From Lysobacteraceae bacterium (GTDB lineage: Bacteria > Pseudomonadota > Gammaproteobacteria > Xanthomonadales > Rhodanobacteraceae), in the NCBI GenBank assembly GCA_028866435.1, contig JAGWIC010000021.1:1-38959 (forward strand): a DNA stretch of 38,959 nucleotides, written 5' to 3'. Under the pieces are notes generated by a model. That model was not told the DNA's origin. It was given only the letters and a program-made list of their open reading frames with translations, and made no database searches. Below are positions 1 through 33,120 of the stretch, in pieces (position 1 is the first letter of the stretch; every line of letters starts with the position of its first letter). The position numbers and the translations under genes were made by a program.

Positions 1-1792
1 CGACGACGACCGGGCCGTGCGCGGCGCGCTGGCCACCACCCTGCTCGGCGCCACGCTGGAACAGTTCCACGACTGGCAGGCCCGGCCCGCCGCGTTCGAG
101 CGCGAGCTGGAACGCTTCGAGGCATTGCGCGCGCTGGTGCGCAGCCGCGGCGTGCTGTCCCTGGTCGGCGAACTGCTGGCCGCGCGCGCCACCGCCCTGC
201 TGGCGCCGCCCGAAGGCGAGCGCGTGCTCACCGACCTGCGCCACCTCGGCGAACTGCTCGCCGCGGAGGAAGGCGAACGGCAAGGCCTGGATGGCCTGTA
301 CGCCTGGCTGCAGGAGATGCGCCGGGAAGGCGGCGACGGCGATGCCGAGGCGGCCGACGAGCGCCAGCTGCGCATCGAGAGCGACGCCCGCCGCGTGCAG
401 CTGCTGACCATCCACGCCAGCAAGGGGCTGGAATTCCCCATCGTGTTCCTGCCGCTGCCGTGGCGCATCCGCAGCCAGAGCGGCAGCTATGCGCCGAAGC
501 TGCTGCGCTACCACGACGACGCCGGCCGGCGCTGCGTGGACCTGGGCTCGATGCATTTCATCGAGCACCGCGCCCGCCACTTCCGCGAAGAGCAGGAGGA
601 ACGCCTGCGCCTGCTCTACGTGGCGCTGACCCGCGCCGTGCATGCGGTGCACGTGTACTGGGTGGATCGCGGCGTACCCACCCAGGATGATCAACTGGCC
701 TGGAACGTGGCGGCGATCGACCTGCTGCTGCGGCAGGCACAGCAACGGCTGCAGCTGGCCGAGGGCGAAGCCTCGCTGCCGGCGATGGTCGCCGCGCTCG
801 ACGGCATGGCGCTGTCGGCACCGTTCACCCAGGCGCCGCTGCATTATCGGGCCACGGCCACCACCCCCGCGGCGCGCGCCACCCAGGAACCATTGCCGTC
901 AGTGCGAGCGTTCCAGTGGCTGCACAGCTTCAGCGGCCTGACCCGCCATGCGGCAAGCGCCACGGCACTGGATGACGGCGGCGCCACGGACGAGGCCGCC
1001 GCGGTGGAGGTCGTCGACGGCGAGGCCGCCAGCGAAGCCGAAGACCCGCGCCTGCTCGCGCTCTATCCCCTGCGCGGCCCGCGTTTCGGCGACGCCGTGC
1101 ACCAGGTGCTCGAACTGGCCCAGCCAGGCCCGGTCTGGCCTGGCCAGCGCAGCCTGCTGCAAAGCCGGCTCGCGGCGCAGGCGATCGCGCCGGGCAAGCT
1201 CGCCGAGGACGAGGTGCTGGAACGGGTCGGCCGGATGATCGACCGTACCCGCCAGGCAGATCTCGGGGCCGGCCTGCGCCTGGTCGACATCGACGCCAGC
1301 CAGCGCGTCGTCGAGTTCGAATTCCAGTTCCCGGTGCAACGCGTCTCGCTGGCGCGGCTGCGACGGCTGTGCACGCGGCACGGCCAGGCCACGGCGATCC
1401 CGGCAAGCCTCGGGCAGACTACGCTCAACGGCATGCTGACCGGCTTCGCCGACCTGATCGTGCGCCAGGACGACCGCTTCCACGTGCTCGACTACAAGAC
1501 CAACTGGCTCGGCGCCCGGCTCGACGACTATCGCGGCGATTCGCTCGACGCCGCCATGGCCGAACATCACTACCCCTTGCAGGCGCTGCTCTACACCGTG
1601 GCCCTGCACCGCTACCTGCGTCAGCGCATGGACGGCTATACGGCCGAACAGCACCTGGGCGACAGCTGCTACCTGTTCGTGCGTGCCGTGGGGATGGCGC
1701 CAGGGCTGGGCGTCTGGCGGCGGCGCTGGCCGGCGGCCCTGATCGCGGCGCTGGACGATGCCTTCGCCGGCGTACCCGAGGACAGCGCATGA
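1..1792 (+). CDS. recB: RecB, exonuclease V beta subunit (C-terminal part; 5' end outside window)
   Basis: This is the C-terminal half of the RecBCD 3'-5' helicase/nuclease subunit; the frame is open from base 2, so the true start lies upstream of the window. Helicase motif V (LLTIHASKGLEF, about 400-435) and motif VI (LRLLYVALTRA, about 607-640) are intact. The RecB-type nuclease domain follows: GDAVHQVLE with the metal-binding His (about 1088-1115), GFADLIVRQD with a metal-binding Asp (about 1441-1470), LDYKTNWLG with the catalytic Asp and Lys (about 1487-1513), and the QALLYTVALHRYL helix (about 1579-1617). The stop codon overlaps the recD start as ATGA, so the two are translationally coupled. 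RecB works with RecC and RecD in double-strand-break resection and Chi-dependent loading of RecA. The subfamily call is firm because recD follows directly. Confidence 0.96.
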   Translation, partial: DDDRAVRGALATTLLGATLEQFHDWQARPAAFERELERFEALRALVRSRGVLSLVGELLAARATALLAPPEGERVLTDLRHLGELLAAEEGERQGLDGLYAWLQEMRREGGDGDAEAADERQLRIESDARRVQLLTIHASKGLEFPIVFLPLPWRIRSQSGSYAPKLLRYHDDAGRRCVDLGSMHFIEHRARHFREEQEERLRLLYVALTRAVHAVHVYWVDRGVPTQDDQLAWNVAAIDLLLRQAQQRLQLAEGEASLPAMVAALDGMALSAPFTQAPLHYRATATTPAARATQEPLPSVRAFQWLHSFSGLTRHAASATALDDGGATDEAAAVEVVDGEAASEAEDPRLLALYPLRGPRFGDAVHQVLELAQPGPVWPGQRSLLQSRLAAQAIAPGKLAEDEVLERVGRMIDRTRQADLGAGLRLVDIDASQRVVEFEFQFPVQRVSLARLRRLCTRHGQATAIPASLGQTTLNGMLTGFADLIVRQDDRFHVLDYKTNWLGARLDDYRGDSLDAAMAEHHYPLQALLYTVALHRYLRQRMDGYTAEQHLGDSCYLFVRAVGMAPGLGVWRRRWPAALIAALDDAFAGVPEDSA

Positions 1793-3678
1793 ACCGCCCC
1801 GTGAGCGAACGGCCCGACCGCAGCGAGCGCGCCATCGACCAGGGCCTGGCGCAATGGGTGCTCCAGCGCACCGGCTCGCCCCTGCTCGCCGCCGCCGCGG
1901 CCGCGGCCAGTCGCGCGGAAGGACAAGGCCATGCCTGCGCCCCGCTGAATGATCCGGACACGCAACCGGGTTTCGACGCGGCGGCGCTGCAGGCGTTGCG
2001 CCAGCACGACTGGGTCGGCGACGGCTCCCGCTTCACCCCCTTCGTGCTGGATGCGCGGCAGCGCTTCTATCTCTGGCGCAACTGGCAGCATGAGCTGAAG
2101 CTGGCTGCCGCCGTCCTGCAACGCTGCGCGCAGCGACACCTGCCGCTGCCGGAAGACGTGCTGGCCGCCGACCTGGCGATGCTGTTCGCGGGCATGCCGG
2201 CCGGCCCCACGGCCTGGCAACAGGCCGCGGTGGCGGCCGTCGCCGGCGCGCGCCTGTTCGTGCTCACCGGCGGCCCCGGCACCGGCAAGACCACCACCGT
2301 GCTGCGCATGCTGCTGATGCTGCTGCGCCATGCCGAGGCCTGCGGCCTGCCCCGGCACCCTTCCATCGCACTGGCCGCCCCCACCGGAAAGGCCGCCCAG
2401 CGACTGGCCCAGGCGATCGGCGAAGGCAAGGCGCAGCTGCAGAACGGCCTCAATCCGGTAGGAGCGCACCCTGTGCGCGATGCTCTTGATGTACATCAGC
2501 AAGACCTTCGCGCACAGAGTGCGCTCCTACGGTGCATCCCCCATGCCGAGGCAAGCACCCTGCACCGCCTGCTAGGCTACCTGCCGCGCGAGAACCGCTT
2601 CAGCCGCGGCCCCCTGCAGCCATTGGCGCAGGACATCGTGGTGGTCGACGAGGCATCGATGGTCGACCTCGCGACGATGCGCCACCTGCTCGATGCCCTG
2701 CGGCCGGCGTCGGTGCTGATCCTGCTGGGCGATCCGGGACAACTGGCCTCGGTGGAGGCCGGCTCGGTACTCGCCGACATGGTCGCCAGCAGCACCCGGA
2801 ACGCGCTGCCGTCGGAGCTGCACCGGCTGCTGGCACCCTTGCTGCCATCGATGCCGCCGCCCGCGCCAGCCCCGGCACCGCTCGCCGGCCAGGTCGTCAC
2901 CCTCACCCACACCTGGCGGGCCGGCAGCGGCCTGCAGCGCGGCATCGAGGCGCTGCGCGGCGCTGCGGCGCCAGGGTGGCTCGATACGCTGCTGCACGAT
3001 CGCGCCGATGGCGACCTGCACCTGCGCCGCTGCGCCGAGCCGCAGCAGTTGCGGCTCGGCGTGGATCACTGGATCGAACGCCATGCCGATCTGTTCCGGT
3101 GCCTGCTCGTGGCGGGCGCCGACCCCGCCGCCGCGCTGGGCCACCTGCGCCAGATGCAGCTGCTGTGCGCGCTGCGCGATGGCCCGTTCGGCGCGCAGGG
3201 AATGAACGCGCTGGTCAGCCGGCGGCTCGCCGCCCGCTTCGGCATCGACGCCAGCCAGGCCTGGCATCACGGCCGCCCGGTGATCATCACCCGCAACGAC
3301 TACGCCCGCGGCCTGTACAACGGCGACGTCGGCATCGCGTTGGCCGGCAGCGAAGGCCTGCGGGTGTGGTTCGAGGGCAGCGACCGCGAGGGTCGGGCAG
3401 GCCTGCGCAGCTTTTCCCCTCGCGCCCTGCCCGCGCACGAAAGCGCGTGGGCCATCACCATCCATCGCAGCCAGGGATCGGAATACCGCGACGTCGCCGT
3501 GGTGCTGCCGCCCGACGACGACCAGCGCATCCTCACCCGCGAGCTGGTCTACACCGCCATCTCGCGTGCCCGCAGCCATGCCGAGATCTGGTGCACCGAC
3601 GACTCGCTTCGCGCCGCCCTGACGCGCACGGTCAGCCGGCAGGGCGGGCTGCGTGAACGCTTACAGCAACCGGGCTGA
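1789..3678 (+). CDS. recD: RecD, exonuclease V alpha subunit
   Basis: This is the 5'-3' SF1B helicase subunit of RecBCD, 629 aa. Visible motifs are Walker A GGPGTGKTTT (residues 161-170), AAPTGKAAQRLAQ (motif Ia), Walker B VVVDEASMVDL (about 285-295), LLGDPGQLASVEAG (motif III), AITIHRSQGSEYRDV (motif V) and VYTAISRAR (motif VI). The start is the ATG overlapping the recB stop (ATGA); an upstream in-frame ATG at 1369 lies deep inside recB and is not used. The striking oddity is a 73-bp imperfect palindrome at 2458-2530, inside the frame and encoding roughly residues 224-248. It falls between the motif Ia helix and the conserved ASTLHRLLG segment. The reading frame survives it, so the protein is probably functional with a loop insertion. 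The gene is convergent with the pilus operon. Confidence 0.96.
   Translation: MNRPVSERPDRSERAIDQGLAQWVLQRTGSPLLAAAAAAASRAEGQGHACAPLNDPDTQPGFDAAALQALRQHDWVGDGSRFTPFVLDARQRFYLWRNWQHELKLAAAVLQRCAQRHLPLPEDVLAADLAMLFAGMPAGPTAWQQAAVAAVAGARLFVLTGGPGTGKTTTVLRMLLMLLRHAEACGLPRHPSIALAAPTGKAAQRLAQAIGEGKAQLQNGLNPVGAHPVRDALDVHQQDLRAQSALLRCIPHAEASTLHRLLGYLPRENRFSRGPLQPLAQDIVVVDEASMVDLATMRHLLDALRPASVLILLGDPGQLASVEAGSVLADMVASSTRNALPSELHRLLAPLLPSMPPPAPAPAPLAGQVVTLTHTWRAGSGLQRGIEALRGAAAPGWLDTLLHDRADGDLHLRRCAEPQQLRLGVDHWIERHADLFRCLLVAGADPAAALGHLRQMQLLCALRDGPFGAQGMNALVSRRLAARFGIDASQAWHHGRPVIITRNDYARGLYNGDVGIALAGSEGLRVWFEGSDREGRAGLRSFSPRALPAHESAWAITIHRSQGSEYRDVAVVLPPDDDQRILTRELVYTAISRARSHAEIWCTDDSLRAALTRTVSRQGGLRERLQQPG
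2458..2530. repeat. 73-bp palindromic REP-like element, type A, inside recD
   Basis: The left arm begins GTAGGAGCGCACCCTGTGCG and the right arm is close to its reverse complement, ending in CGCACAGAGTGCGCTCCTAC. The loop is unrelated to the arms. Two further copies of exactly 73 bp are at 12873-12945 and 33048-33120, both between genes. This copy alone is translated, in frame, as part of RecD. Confidence 0.93.
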
Positions 3679-12223: not shown

Positions 12224-12300
12224 GTAGGAGCCCGCTTGCGGGCGATGCTTTCTCTTTGCGGCCTGCAGGGCAAGAGCATCGCCCGCGAGCGGGCTCCTAC
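12224..12300. repeat. 77-bp palindromic REP-like element, type B, between lspA and ispH
   Basis: The left arm begins GTAGGAGCCCGCTTGCGGGC and the right arm GCCCGCGAGCGGGCTCCTAC closes the hairpin; the interior also pairs (GATGCTTT with AAGAGCATC, imperfectly). Related copies are at 19088-19157 and 24539-24638. It fills most of the 116-bp gap upstream of ispH. Confidence 0.92.
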
Positions 12301-12872: not shown

Positions 12873-12945
12873 GTAGAAGCGCACCCTGTGCGCGATTGCT
12901 GTGGCTATGCGATGAAGGGCAATCGCGCACAGAGTGCGCTCCTAC
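12873..12945. repeat. 73-bp palindromic REP-like element, type A, between ileS and lspA
   Basis: It has the same outer arms as the copies in recD and before kynU (GTAGAAGCGCACCCTGTGCG; one base differs from the usual GTAGGAGC). The right arm is CGCACAGAGTGCGCTCCTAC. Its length equals the other type A copies. It takes up almost the whole gap between the ileS stop and lspA start, so the polycistronic mRNA would carry a stable hairpin here. Confidence 0.92.
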
Positions 12946-19087: not shown

Positions 19088-19157
19088 GTAGGAGCCCGCT
19101 GGCGGGCGATGCTTTTCGTCATGTAACGAAGAGCATCGCCCGCGAGCGGGCTCCTAC
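19088..19157. repeat. 70-bp palindromic REP-like element, type B, after rpsT
   Basis: The left arm GTAGGAGCCCGCTGGCGGGC continues with GATGCTTTTCG and pairs with CGAAGAGCATC followed by GCCCGCGAGCGGGCTCCTAC. It is the most symmetrical of the type B copies. It separates the convergent rpsT terminator and the end of the feo operon. Confidence 0.92.
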
Positions 19158-19488: not shown

Positions 19489-21320
19489 GACAGCAACCTC
19501 GCCAGCTGATAGACGATGAAGGACGCCGCATAGGCCAGCACGAACATGTAGCTGAACGAGATCGCCACGTTGCGCCACGAGTTGGTCTCGCGGCGAATCA
19601 AGGCCAGGGTCGACATGCACTGCGGCGCATAGGCAAACCACACCAGCAGCGACAGCGCGCTGGCCAGCGAAATCTGGCCGGCCAGCGCATGTTCCAGGCC
19701 GCCGGGGCTCTGTCCGCCCACCAGGTAGACGGTGGCCAGCGCCGCCACCGCCGTCTCGCGCGCGGCGAAGGCGGGGATCAGCGCCAGGCTGATCTCCCAG
19801 TTGAAGCCGATCGGCGCAAAGATGAATTGCAGGCCACGGCCGATATAGCCGGCAAAGCTGTAATTGATGGCCGGACCGGTGGCACCCACCGGCGGTCCCG
19901 GGAAGGTCGAGATGAACCACATCAGCACGGTCAGCCCGAGGATCACGCCGGTGAGGCGCCTCATGAAAATCGCGCCGCGCTCGTACAGGCCGATCGCCAC
20001 ATCGCGCAGCTTGGGCATCCGGTACGAGGGCAGCTCCATCAACAAGGCATGCTCGCTCTTGTCGCGACGGAGCCGTTTCATCACCCAGCCGACCGCCATC
20101 GCGCCCAGGATGCCGGCCAGGTACAACGCGAACAGCACGATCCCCTGCAGGTTGAACAACCCCACCTTGCGCGCCGGGATGAAGGCGCCGATCAGCAGTG
20201 CATACACCGGCAACCGGGCCGAACAGGTCATCAGCGGCGCGATCAGGATGGTGGCGAGGCGATCGCGCGGGTCCTGAATGCTGCGCGTGCCCATGATGCC
20301 GGGGATGGCACAGGCGAAACTCGACAGCAACGGAATGAACGAACGCCCGGTCAGCCCCACCGACAGCATCAGCCGATCGAGCAGGAAGGCCGCGCGCGGC
20401 AGGTAGCCCGACTCCTCCAGGGTGAGGATGAACAGGAACAGCACCAGGATCACCGGCAGGAAGCCGATCACCGTGCCCAGCCCGCCGAACAGGCCGTTGA
20501 CCACCAGGCTCTGCAGCGGCCCGGCCGGCATCGCCACCGCCACGTGCTCGCCCAGCCAGCCGAACGCGCCACCGATCAGGTCGCTCATCGGCTTGCCGGC
20601 GGCATAGACCGCCTGGAACACCAGGAACATGACCACGGCCAGGATGGCCAGGCCGAATACCGGGTGCAGCGCCCAGCGATCCAGCGCATCGTCCAGCGCC
20701 GCGGTGGCGCGCGGCATGCGCACCGTCGCCGCCAGCAGCTCGCGTACCTGCGCGTGCAGGTCGGCGCGACTGGCCGCGTCATCCGGCTGCACTGGCGCCG
20801 CCGGCGGCACCTCGCCATCCACCCGCGCGATCAGCGCCCGTGCGCCACCTCGCTTGACGGCCACGGTCTCCACCACCGGCAGGCCGAGCCGGCGCTGCAG
20901 CTCGGGCACGTCGATGACGATGCCGCGCGCCCGCGCGGTATCCATCATGTTCAACGCCAGCACTACCGGTCGGCCCAGGCGCCTGACCTCCAGCACGAAG
21001 CGCAGGTGCAGGCGCAGGTTGGTGGCGTCGGCCACGCACACGATCAGGTCCGGCGGCAGCTCGCCCGGGTAGTTGCCGGCGCAGACGTCGCGGGTGATCT
21101 GCTCGTCCGGGCTGTTCGCCTCGAGGCTGTAGGTGCCCGGCAGGTCGAGGATATGCAGCACCCGCCCCGATGGCGCGGTGAAGCGGCCCTCCTTGCGTTC
21201 CACCGTGACGCCGGCGTAGTTGGCGACTTTTTGCCGGCCGCCGGTAAGCTGGTTGAACAGCGCCGTCTTGCCGCAGTTCGGGTTGCCGACAAGGGCGATG
21301 CGCAGGGTCGACGCGCTCAT
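19485..21320 (-). CDS. feoB: FeoB, ferrous iron transporter
   Basis: An inner-membrane Fe(II) transporter of 611 aa with an N-terminal G-protein domain. Its motifs are GNPNCGKT (residues 12-19), VTVERKEG (switch I), DLPGTYSL (G3) and NMMD (G4). A helical spacer and the FeoB_C membrane region follow, with the Cys-containing gate motifs SSFACAIPGIMGTR and LMTCSARLPVYALLI. It is shorter than E. coli FeoB (773 aa), which is common in this order. The start overlaps the feoA stop as ATGA, and the stop overlaps the small Cys-rich gene. Expression is probably iron-repressed through the Fur-like site upstream of feoA. Confidence 0.96.
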   Translation of the reverse strand: MSASTLRIALVGNPNCGKTALFNQLTGGRQKVANYAGVTVERKEGRFTAPSGRVLHILDLPGTYSLEANSPDEQITRDVCAGNYPGELPPDLIVCVADATNLRLHLRFVLEVRRLGRPVVLALNMMDTARARGIVIDVPELQRRLGLPVVETVAVKRGGARALIARVDGEVPPAAPVQPDDAASRADLHAQVRELLAATVRMPRATAALDDALDRWALHPVFGLAILAVVMFLVFQAVYAAGKPMSDLIGGAFGWLGEHVAVAMPAGPLQSLVVNGLFGGLGTVIGFLPVILVLFLFILTLEESGYLPRAAFLLDRLMLSVGLTGRSFIPLLSSFACAIPGIMGTRSIQDPRDRLATILIAPLMTCSARLPVYALLIGAFIPARKVGLFNLQGIVLFALYLAGILGAMAVGWVMKRLRRDKSEHALLMELPSYRMPKLRDVAIGLYERGAIFMRRLTGVILGLTVLMWFISTFPGPPVGATGPAINYSFAGYIGRGLQFIFAPIGFNWEISLALIPAFAARETAVAALATVYLVGGQSPGGLEHALAGQISLASALSLLVWFAYAPQCMSTLALIRRETNSWRNVAISFSYMFVLAYAASFIVYQLARLLS

Positions 21321-24538: not shown

Positions 24539-24638
24539 GTAGGAGCCCGCTTGCGGGCGATGCTCTTGGCTCTTGCGAATCCCAAATCCCGAATCCCGAA
24601 TCCCGCACCAAGAGCATCGCCCGCAAGCGGGCTCCTAC
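24539..24638. repeat. 100-bp palindromic REP-like element, type B, between liuD and liuE
   Basis: The arms match the other type B copies: GTAGGAGCCCGCTTGCGGGC with GATGCTCTTG, and CAAGAGCATC with GCCCGCAAGCGGGCTCCTAC. The loop is longer and contains four copies of the heptamer-like unit AATCCCG/AATCCCA, the same unit that builds the inverted repeat at 28464-28566. It begins 4 bp after the liuD stop. Confidence 0.92.
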
Positions 24639-26930: not shown

Positions 26931-27461
26931 TCAGTGATGCAGCAGCAGGTCCGCGATGATGCCGCTGGTGATGGCCACCAGCAGGAAGTCGCCGTTGTCG
27001 CTGCGCACCCAGCGATATCCACGCGGCGGTTCGCGCAGGTGATCCCTGCGCCAGTCCTCGACCACGTAGGGCCCGCCGCGATACTCGACCGGCATGTAAC
27101 CACCCCGGCGATACCAGCCTTCGTCGCGACCGCGCTCATACATGCCGTGGCGCCCATGATCGCGATCATGGCCATAGGCATAAGCGTGGCCATTGCCGTG
27201 GCCATTCCAGCGGCCGTTTCCATGGCCGTTTCCGTGGTCGTTTCCATGGCCATTCCAGTGGCCGCGCTCGTCGTCGTTACGTTCGTCGCGCCGCTCGTCG
27301 CGCCGGTCGTTCCGGTGGTCGTGGCGGCCGTCCTGCTGACCGTCCTGGTAACCATTGTCCTGGCCCCGGTAGTCCTGCCCCACCGGCTGTGCCACCGCCA
27401 CCGCACCACATGACAGCAGCAGCGTGCCGCCGATCAACCATGCACCCCATGACTTCTTCAT
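26931..27461 (-). CDS. RcnB-family-like periplasmic protein with HGNG repeats
   Basis: A 176-aa exported protein. A signal peptide (MKKSWGAWLIGGTLLLSCGAVAVAQ, about 25 residues) is followed by an Arg/Asp/His-rich segment. Next come short repeats of HGNG and WNGHGN (about residues 70-95) encoded by near-identical 12-18-bp units at 27190-27270. The C-terminal part has YMPVEYRGGPYVVEDWRRDHLREPPRGYRWVRSDNGDFLLVAITSGIIADLLL. This matches the RcnB/DUF2502-like ending (PPxGYxWVRxxxDxxLVAIxTGxI). E. coli RcnB takes part in nickel/cobalt homeostasis, but most relatives are uncharacterised. The His-rich repeats could bind metal; this is inference. The ATG at the MKKSW start was chosen because the signal peptide begins there. 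Confidence 0.8.
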   Translation of the reverse strand: MKKSWGAWLIGGTLLLSCGAVAVAQPVGQDYRGQDNGYQDGQQDGRHDHRNDRRDERRDERNDDERGHWNGHGNDHGNGHGNGRWNGHGNGHAYAYGHDRDHGRHGMYERGRDEGWYRRGGYMPVEYRGGPYVVEDWRRDHLREPPRGYRWVRSDNGDFLLVAITSGIIADLLLHH

Positions 27462-29135: not shown

Positions 29136-29150
29136 AAGCGGGAGTGAGGG

Positions 29151-29309
29151 CAGGAGTGAGTGCGCAGGAGTGAGCAGTGAGAGAAGAGCCGTGACCCGGG
29201 CAAGCCTACCGTGCCAGCCGATCCGGCGCGCCATGCCTGCGTGGGACGAGAAGCAGGGCAACCGTGAGCTGCTTTTCTCTCACTGCTCACTCCTGCGCAC
29301 TCACTCCTG
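29151..29309. repeat. Perfect 35-bp inverted repeat between efpL and the FUSC gene
   Basis: The left arm, 29151-29185, starts CAGGAGTGAGTGCGCAGGAG; the right arm, 29275-29309, ends in its exact complement, CTCCTGCGCACTCACTCCTG. The two arms are perfectly complementary over 35 bp, with an 89-nt loop, and imperfect pairing continues inwards. The arms are built from GAGTGAG/GAGCAGTGAG units. The element fills nearly all of the 182-bp gap. Confidence 0.92.
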
Positions 29310-29317
29310 ACCACCCC

Positions 29318-33047: not shown

Positions 33048-33120
33048 GTAGGAGCGCACCCTGTGCGCGATTGCCTTTGCTGTACGAAGAAGGGCCATCG
33101 CGCACAGGGTGCGCCCCCAC
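33048..33120. repeat. 73-bp palindromic REP-like element, type A, before kynU
   Basis: GTAGGAGCGCACCCTGTGCG on the left pairs with CGCACAGGGTGCGCCCCCAC on the right; the loop differs from the other copies. The length is again 73 bp. It stands between the secreted-protein gene and kynureninase, with its right arm 24 bp before the chosen kynU start. Confidence 0.92.

Follow-up and report, generated by a model that had tools for sequence, protein, structure and literature searches.

The window analysed here, 38,959 nucleotides long, is contig C7 of the assembly G000, which comprises 128 contigs (3.08 Mb) at a completeness of 89.4%. The window contains the gene recD, Table 1. Its product passes the NCBIfam recD equivalog model TIGR01447 with 424 bits, against a cut-off of 310, and a search with RecD finds this single match in the assembly. 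Inside the frame sits a doublet of two REP sequences of a family that we call A. This palindrome is a near-perfect inverted repeat, predicted to fold into a single hairpin of -32.9 kcal/mol as DNA (z = -10.3), and 0 out of 200 shuffled sequences fold as well.

Table 1. The recD element and related features. Positions refer to the window unless a contig is named.
Feature	Position	Strand	Remarks
recD	1789..3678	+	629 aa, frame intact across the insert
Codons of AAPTGKAAQRL, presumably motif Ia (residues 196-206)	2374..2406	+	left border of the linker
Family-A REP doublet (REPIN) VGAHPVRDALDVHQQDLRAQSALLR	2458..2530	+	73 bp, codes residues 224-248
Left REP arm GTAGGAGCGCACCCTGTGCGCGA	2458..2480	+	0 mismatches to the family-A pattern
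Loop of the recD element	2481..2507		27 nt; nearest within G000 is the loop of C80:1068-1142
Right REP arm	2508..2530	-	1 mismatch to the family-A consensus
Codons of TLHRLLG (residues 257-263)	2557..2577	+	right border of the linker
Sibling family-A doublet	12873..12945		73 bp; no frame common to both flanks
Sibling family-A doublet	33048..33120		73 bp; no frame common to both flanks
polA doublet	G000:C85:54696-54771
hrpA doublet	G000:C112:9767-9839

A first-pass annotation had reported a 73-bp palindrome translated within recD, and both its coordinates and the uninterrupted frame were verified, the translation crossing codons 224-248 without a stop. The two further 73-bp copies that it had listed are also present, with 80% and 81% identity to the recD copy (the siblings in Table 1, in that order). 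Two details hold only in part. The insert was said to lie between helicase motifs Ia and II; it does follow AAPTGKAAQRL, which we take to be motif Ia, but it precedes TLHRLLG, well upstream of what we likewise take to be motif II. It was also said to add about 25 residues. Indeed 25 residues are REP-coded, but the net gain of the linker is only 17 aa (150 nt here against 99 nt, or 33 aa, in the shortest common form without insert among the congeners), so that about 22 nt of native linker are missing.

According to a phmmer alignment, residues 30-217 and 250-622 correspond to residues 32-223 and 233-601 of E. coli RecD, i.e. 32 residues here stand for nine of the E. coli protein. The AlphaFold2 model of RecD, obtained from 18 sequences, is of middling confidence (mean pLDDT 73), and its best structural match is the RecD of RecBCD (5ld2_D, E 5e-38). 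In the model, residues 224-231 have a pLDDT below 50 and lie between the helices 200-221 and 233-247, the latter taking in REP-coded residues.

Family A in the genome and its RAYT

The first-pass annotation had proposed a genome-wide count of coding and other copies. With up to three mismatches, the family-A arm pattern has 97 matches in the whole assembly, compared with 0 for the reversed control. We characterised 49 units from the window and 35 further stretches. Of these, 38 are doublets of 62-78 bp; the latter number is a lower bound, as about 10 of the 97 arm matches lie outside the sample (contigs C30, C32, C43, C50, C102 and C121). Six out of the 38 doublets were judged translated by a codon-score test, whose training had one segment out of frame (about 3% of the training DNA), together with inspection, and the other 32 are not individually proved intergenic.

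Three of the six are found in recD, polA (DNA polymerase I, 860 bits) and hrpA (886 bits). The remaining three lie on contig C80 in two neighbouring frames and are only putatively translated. They are less sure because these frames match no NCBIfam family and resemble at best weak TPR models; the copy at 19518 is on the score threshold and was counted since it is inside the same 766-aa frame.

Each arm is a short palindromic REP with GTAG at its outer end. As in REPINs, the two inverted REPs form one hairpin, the copies are dispersed in high number, and there is a cognate RAYT gene flanked by the same REPs. In G000 this gene is on C80, where it was located with the G036 protein as a probe; it matches the equivalog NF047646 with 125.5 bits (cut-off 80) and adjoins a family-A doublet, seen on one side. 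The homologous RAYT has family-A REPs on both sides in G036, G013, G034, G037 and G023. In G036 the TAG stop of the RAYT frame comes from the GTAG of the REP just after it (L134, G036:C115). Abundance of the family needs no close RAYT today, as G021 (500 family-A matches, most of all) and G011 (113) are rich in family A and have a RAYT match of only 28% identity.

A gene on C55, suggested by the Pfam Y1_Tnp profile, was rejected as the family-A transposase: by eye there is no family-A arm within 3.2 kb. Around the Y1-type transposase gene of locus L008 (G000:C55:20847-24023) the string GATAATGTCTCTGACCC is repeated, and by eye a small gene pair resembling a toxin-antitoxin module lies beside it.

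Other repeats are found in the window. A second REP family forms doublets at 12224-12300, 19088-19157 and 24539-24638, with arms GTAGGAGCCCGCTTGCGGGCGATGC. An inverted repeat of unrelated sequence has 42-nt arms at 29148-29189 and 29271-29312, 95% complementary and 81 nt apart, and positions 27172-27279 consist of 12-bp tandem units whose shifted copies are about 60-70% alike. Rfam models over the window report one tRNA and nothing else.

REP inserts in the RecD linker of related genomes

The RecD search gave a match in 44 out of 45 genomes of the genus, some of them too weak for RecD. We compared 30 loci, 26 close orthologues (identity of at least 68%) and four divergent ones, the other 14 matched genomes being outside the sample. 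Between AAPTGKAAQRL and TLHRLLG, 14 of the 26 close orthologues contain a REP insert and 12 have none. The four divergent loci are insert-free. The same is true in other genera of the family for all 40 readable loci (47 were taken and 7 are unreadable by the motifs), with linkers of 27-36 aa. Linkers without insert in the genus look like these and unlike remnants.

The inserts belong to three REP families. Family A is found in G000, G037, G021, G036, G013 and G008, the last with a family-B element too. Family B (GTAGGGCGGGCACTGCCCGCC) is present in G020, and in G011 twice in tandem; a decayed family-B half remains in G007, G029 and G010. Family C (GTGGGAGCGACTTCAGTCGCGA) occupies the linker in G040, G026 and G032. 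These classes were assigned by eye; in G026 and G032 the C copies, like the decayed B halves, are only partial. At L033 (G011, two B elements in tandem) and L032 (G008, one B and one A), short direct repeats seen by eye flank the units, as if from tandem duplication.

The analysis bears out the reading of the first-pass annotation that a dispersed palindrome has been inserted into recD in frame and is apparently translated. It has non-coding siblings, and many relatives lack it. The insertion had also been called notable, no case being known in RecD from this order, but it does not stand alone: more than half of the close congeners hold some REP there, and polA and hrpA of G000 carry one too. 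It had been stated that presence in all close relatives would make the segment ancestral. The alignment gives a divided picture, as five other genomes of the genus have family A at this place, 12 of 26 are without insert, and other genera have 0 out of 40.

That the segment is a chance palindrome, ancestral coding sequence or an assembly artefact is barely credible. The arm count against its control and the shuffled folds speak against chance, and orthologues without insert exist. Similar inserts occur in the apparent isolate genomes G013, G011 and G040, which excludes an artefact of metagenome assembly.

All 26 close linkers, including the 14 with inserts, are in frame and stop-free; the RecD match of G020 has one TAG, outside the linker. 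The RNA hairpin of the G000 element is very stable (-51.4 kcal/mol), which might suit removal of the insert at the RNA level or skipping by the ribosome. We consider such a bypass very improbable, as an open frame throughout would be unneeded in a segment that is skipped. Elements of this kind occur at the same RecD position in several related species, in some cases flipped, which suggests that the protein tolerates REP inserts in this linker.

The class of insert in RecD usually seems to be the family abundant in that genome. The median number of matches per genome with and without the insert is 240 vs 8.5 for family A (p 0.0005), 55.5 vs 1 for family B (p 0.002) and 187 vs 1 for family C (p 0.002), in one-sided Mann-Whitney tests over the 26 genomes that ignore kinship. 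The exceptions are G043 (122 B matches) and G011 (rich in A, see above), without that class in RecD.

On a tree of RecB and RecD (29 rows, 3 open forks among 26 inner branches) at least 11 changes of class are needed, and at least 8 between insert and none. Counted alone, the classes need at least four (A), five (B) and three (C) changes. The tree of RecD only gives 11 and 9 changes, with 9 open forks. There would have been no fewer than three separate insertion events (one for each family), perhaps about eleven.

The family-A inserts share their junctions, 15 nt from CTGCAR in five out of six and 5 nt before ATHCC in all six, so several apparent insertions may be one that was moved by recombination. 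The chance is slightly below even that family A entered RecD once, early, and spread by descent or between-species recombination, the spot then being no repeat target for A. Besides the junctions, this agrees with likely exchange between species: G000 and G037 differ at 9 of 137 fourfold sites near the HrpA insert (L169 vs L237) and at 47 of 134 in RecD, a contrast that reflects either recent between-species exchange or mixing in an incomplete assembly. The number of changes for A on the RecB and RecD tree and the linkers that do not look like remnants argue against a single entry, and families B and C require their own events regardless. Across the genus, the RecD linker looks like a repeat target for REPs, which is new as far as the literature was searched.

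Loop orientation and arm conservation in RecD, HrpA and PolA

The two arms are mutual reverse complements, and an element can therefore invert in place while its arms and frame remain unchanged; the flipped form would stay open in 21 out of 23 elements. We compared the loops pairwise in direct and inverted orientation by score. Among the 15 pairs of RecD loops, 11 are without clear orientation. The G036 loop is inverted relative to that of G021 (1.0 direct, 19.0 inverted, 23/27 matches) and that of G037 (6.0 direct, 17.0 inverted, 22/27), and G021 and G037 agree directly (17.0 direct, 0.0 inverted), as do G013 and G008. Both junction positions and the element length are identical between G036 and G021/G037. 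G037 and G021 also show opposite orientations of an element roughly 0.6 kb downstream of recD (-6.0 direct, 11.0 inverted).

Nine genomes carry family A in HrpA, at almost the same position (L169, L234-L241). These copies are by-catch of a REP-peptide search in which insert-free genomes are uncounted; 8 of its 20 stretches are HrpA, and the other 12 have no clear gene around the element, 4 with stops inside. Of the 36 loop pairs, 18 are inverted, 14 direct and 4 unclear, which gives two orientation groups: G000, G014, G030, G036 and G032 on one side, G037, G019, G039 and G043 on the other (G043 less sure). For G000 and G037 the loop score is 6.5 direct and 22.0 inverted; their elements have identical junction positions, and the flanks agree to 95.6% and 97.6% over 250 bp. 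The loops of the apparent isolates G014 and G043 score 5.5 direct and 15.0 inverted. A tree of the nine rows leaves 4 out of 6 inner branches open and requires three or more orientation changes, and its supported sisters G014 and G043 (100/99) have opposite orientation and left junctions three bases apart.

The PolA linker before the 3'-5' exonuclease segment FDTETT holds repetitive inserts of several families, as judged by eye in 25 readable loci out of 30 (L159 and L204-L233). Family A is found in G000, G011, G012, G001, G034, G036, G019 and G021, C-like peptides in G006, G040 and G022, and other repetitive peptides in G014, G033, G005 and G008. Among the 28 PolA loop pairs 23 are unclear, 3 are direct and 2 were flagged as inverted. 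We do not rely on these two (G000-G001 and G011-G012), where the margins are small (4.5 score units each). A further comparison, in which the flanking DNA of elements was considered as well, gave 14 pairs whose two flanks align: 5 of them are inverted, 3 are direct and 6 unclear. Rows are shared, so that the pairs are non-independent.

A segment is thus seen in both orientations within the inverted repeats of one gene between species only, in RecD (G036 vs G021/G037) and in HrpA (G000 vs G037). As read from these alignments, the arms stay constant and the loop is inverted, by which the frame is kept and the predicted internal peptide swapped.

The loop of the G000 recD element is closest to that of the ectopic copy C80:1068-1142 (14.5), and the RecD-site loops of relatives score at most 5.5 (best G008). 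Compared with shuffled sequences, it has no clear relation in either orientation to the loops at the RecD site in G021, G036 and G037, so that a flip of G000's own copy is not indicated; it resembles those of G008 and G013 somewhat, with neither orientation preferred. In the G000 lineage, insertion of the element, or exchange of its loop, was probably an event apart from that in the G021/G036/G037 group.

This nearness to an ectopic copy would also be expected if the loops of relatives differed through exchange with other genomic copies (ectopic conversion) and not through inversion, and so would arms that stay near the family consensus at fourfold columns in RecD, PolA and HrpA. We hold this to be unlikely: of 37 doublets in 672,537 bases of G036, about one fifth of the genome, none has a loop similar to the one in RecD (best 1.5), but the reverse complement of this RecD loop fits the corresponding site in G021 and G037.

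Opposite loops could also arise without a flip in place, if like elements had inserted separately in the two orientations. The RecD site does take separate elements of different families, the HrpA junctions of the sisters G014 and G043 differ, and the loops of the family share an inner stem, making unrelated copies somewhat alike both ways. The common junctions and length in RecD (G036 and G021/G037) and the common junctions and near-identical flanks in HrpA (G000 and G037) make separate insertions rather improbable, and we prefer inversion in place.

The arms vary less than their flanks at fourfold sites. Pairwise differences in flanks and arms are 490/1970 and 10/163 in RecD, 785/2920 and 19/293 in PolA, and 1091/4415 and 8/432 in HrpA, the pairs being non-independent. 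Variable fourfold columns in flanks vs arms number 54/97 vs 2/10 in RecD (Fisher p 0.045), 45/74 vs 1/8 in PolA (p 0.019) and 58/100 vs 1/12 in HrpA (p 0.001). Because the PolA and HrpA rows were picked by a peptide pattern that only nearly intact arms can match, the conservation of the arms at silent sites is only suggestive.

Selection might keep the insert, through a hairpin or peptide that alters RecBCD activity or recD expression, in line with the mutator idea of the 2013 paper. The low silent-site variation in three genes is in its favour, together with the recurrence in repair and RNA enzymes (RecD, PolA, HrpA) and in the part of the 2013 survey that concerns such genes (PMC3733652). 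However, the silent-site result is biased by the choice of copies, and translated doublets in G000 are no better conserved than the others (3 mismatches in 6 vs 36 in 32, p = 0.21). Three unrelated families at one site, and close orthologues without any insert, fit poorly with it as well. We therefore think it improbable that selection maintains the element.

Origin of the insert and comparison with known systems

The insert is very probably a translated REPIN, an element of a RAYT family that survives in frame in a tolerant surface loop of RecD and can flip by means of its own arms. It would be a non-autonomous unit of two GTAG-type REPs head to head, presumably moved by the RAYT encoded on C80. 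A copy would have landed in the exposed tip between two RecD helices and replaced the missing part of the native linker. It would have persisted because the junction keeps the frame, both arms read without a stop and the loop tolerates the extra residues, so that RecD is presumably made and working. Once inserted, an element could flip in place, presumably by template switching at the hairpin or by recombination between the arms, and only the loop peptide would be altered.

More speculatively, translated REPINs may act as invertible cassettes in tolerant loops of RecD, HrpA or similar proteins, the arms, which vary little even at silent sites, letting the segment flip repeatedly and toggle an internal peptide in frame; we regard this as rather unlikely. 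If true, DNA-repair and RNA enzymes would have a source of variation that is seeded by a transposase and needs no invertase. The one RecD loop offers a natural insertion series, with none, one or two elements, three families and two orientations. With it one could test if REP decoration alters repair enzymes or is simply tolerated by them, and also if REPINs invert where they sit.

The source organism belongs to the same order as Xanthomonas. Intragenic GTAG REPs have been described as giving "REP-decorated proteins", many of them in replication and repair genes, with 20-30 residues coded (PMC3733652). The recBCD proteins and DNA polymerase I are named among them, and in recB of two Xanthomonas species the REPs lie at about one common site; tolerance of loops is weighed there against altered repair (PMC3733652). 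Translated REPs in repair genes including recBCD were thus published in 2013, and an element of this kind was already known (PMC3733652). The string "recD" is absent from the main text of that paper, and its supplement may hold a recD entry. In the open-access literature we found no report of an intragenic REP in recD, none on REP sequences in Rhodanobacter, and, among the best matches judged by title, none of REPIN inversion.

The G000 insert resembles the REP-decorated cases, as set out in the main text of PMC3733652, in having a GTAG-tagged REP dimer in an open frame of a repair gene. The difference is that one RecD loop receives three families across the genus, that these track abundance and that loops at one site are inverted between relatives. 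The element is ordinary in kind; less ordinary are the three REP families in one RecD loop and the flipped loops that recode part of a repair or RNA helicase in frame.

REPINs consist of two inverted REPs with conserved ends and a less conserved spacer, forming one hairpin in which compensatory changes are common; the P. fluorescens type is about 71 bp long and has a linked RAYT (PMC3116915). The inverted pair, the single hairpin and the linked RAYT are all found here. The passages of PMC3116915 that describe REPINs have them as extragenic, whereas some copies here appear to be translated.

The first-pass annotation had compared the insert to the palindromic elements of Rickettsia (RPE), which are about 150 bp long, code a conserved peptide and lie in frame inside genes (PMC10969869). 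The likeness holds for behaviour, palindromic repeats being in frame within genes in both, but the arms and the linked transposase make this element a GTAG REP doublet. RPEs are of unrelated sequence, and the sections of PMC10969869 that describe them mention no RAYT link, against 73 bp and a RAYT here. Length and RAYT link, and not a comparison of sequences, argue against the recD element being an RPE.

In intragenic invertons, reportedly described by Chanin et al. 2024, the DNA between short inverted repeats within a gene is flipped, and the protein is thereby recoded. The recD and hrpA elements are similar, with inverted repeats inside a gene and a segment whose orientation recodes the protein. 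They differ in that the flip is seen between species only, that no invertase is implicated, and that arms of a mobile element serve as the repeats.
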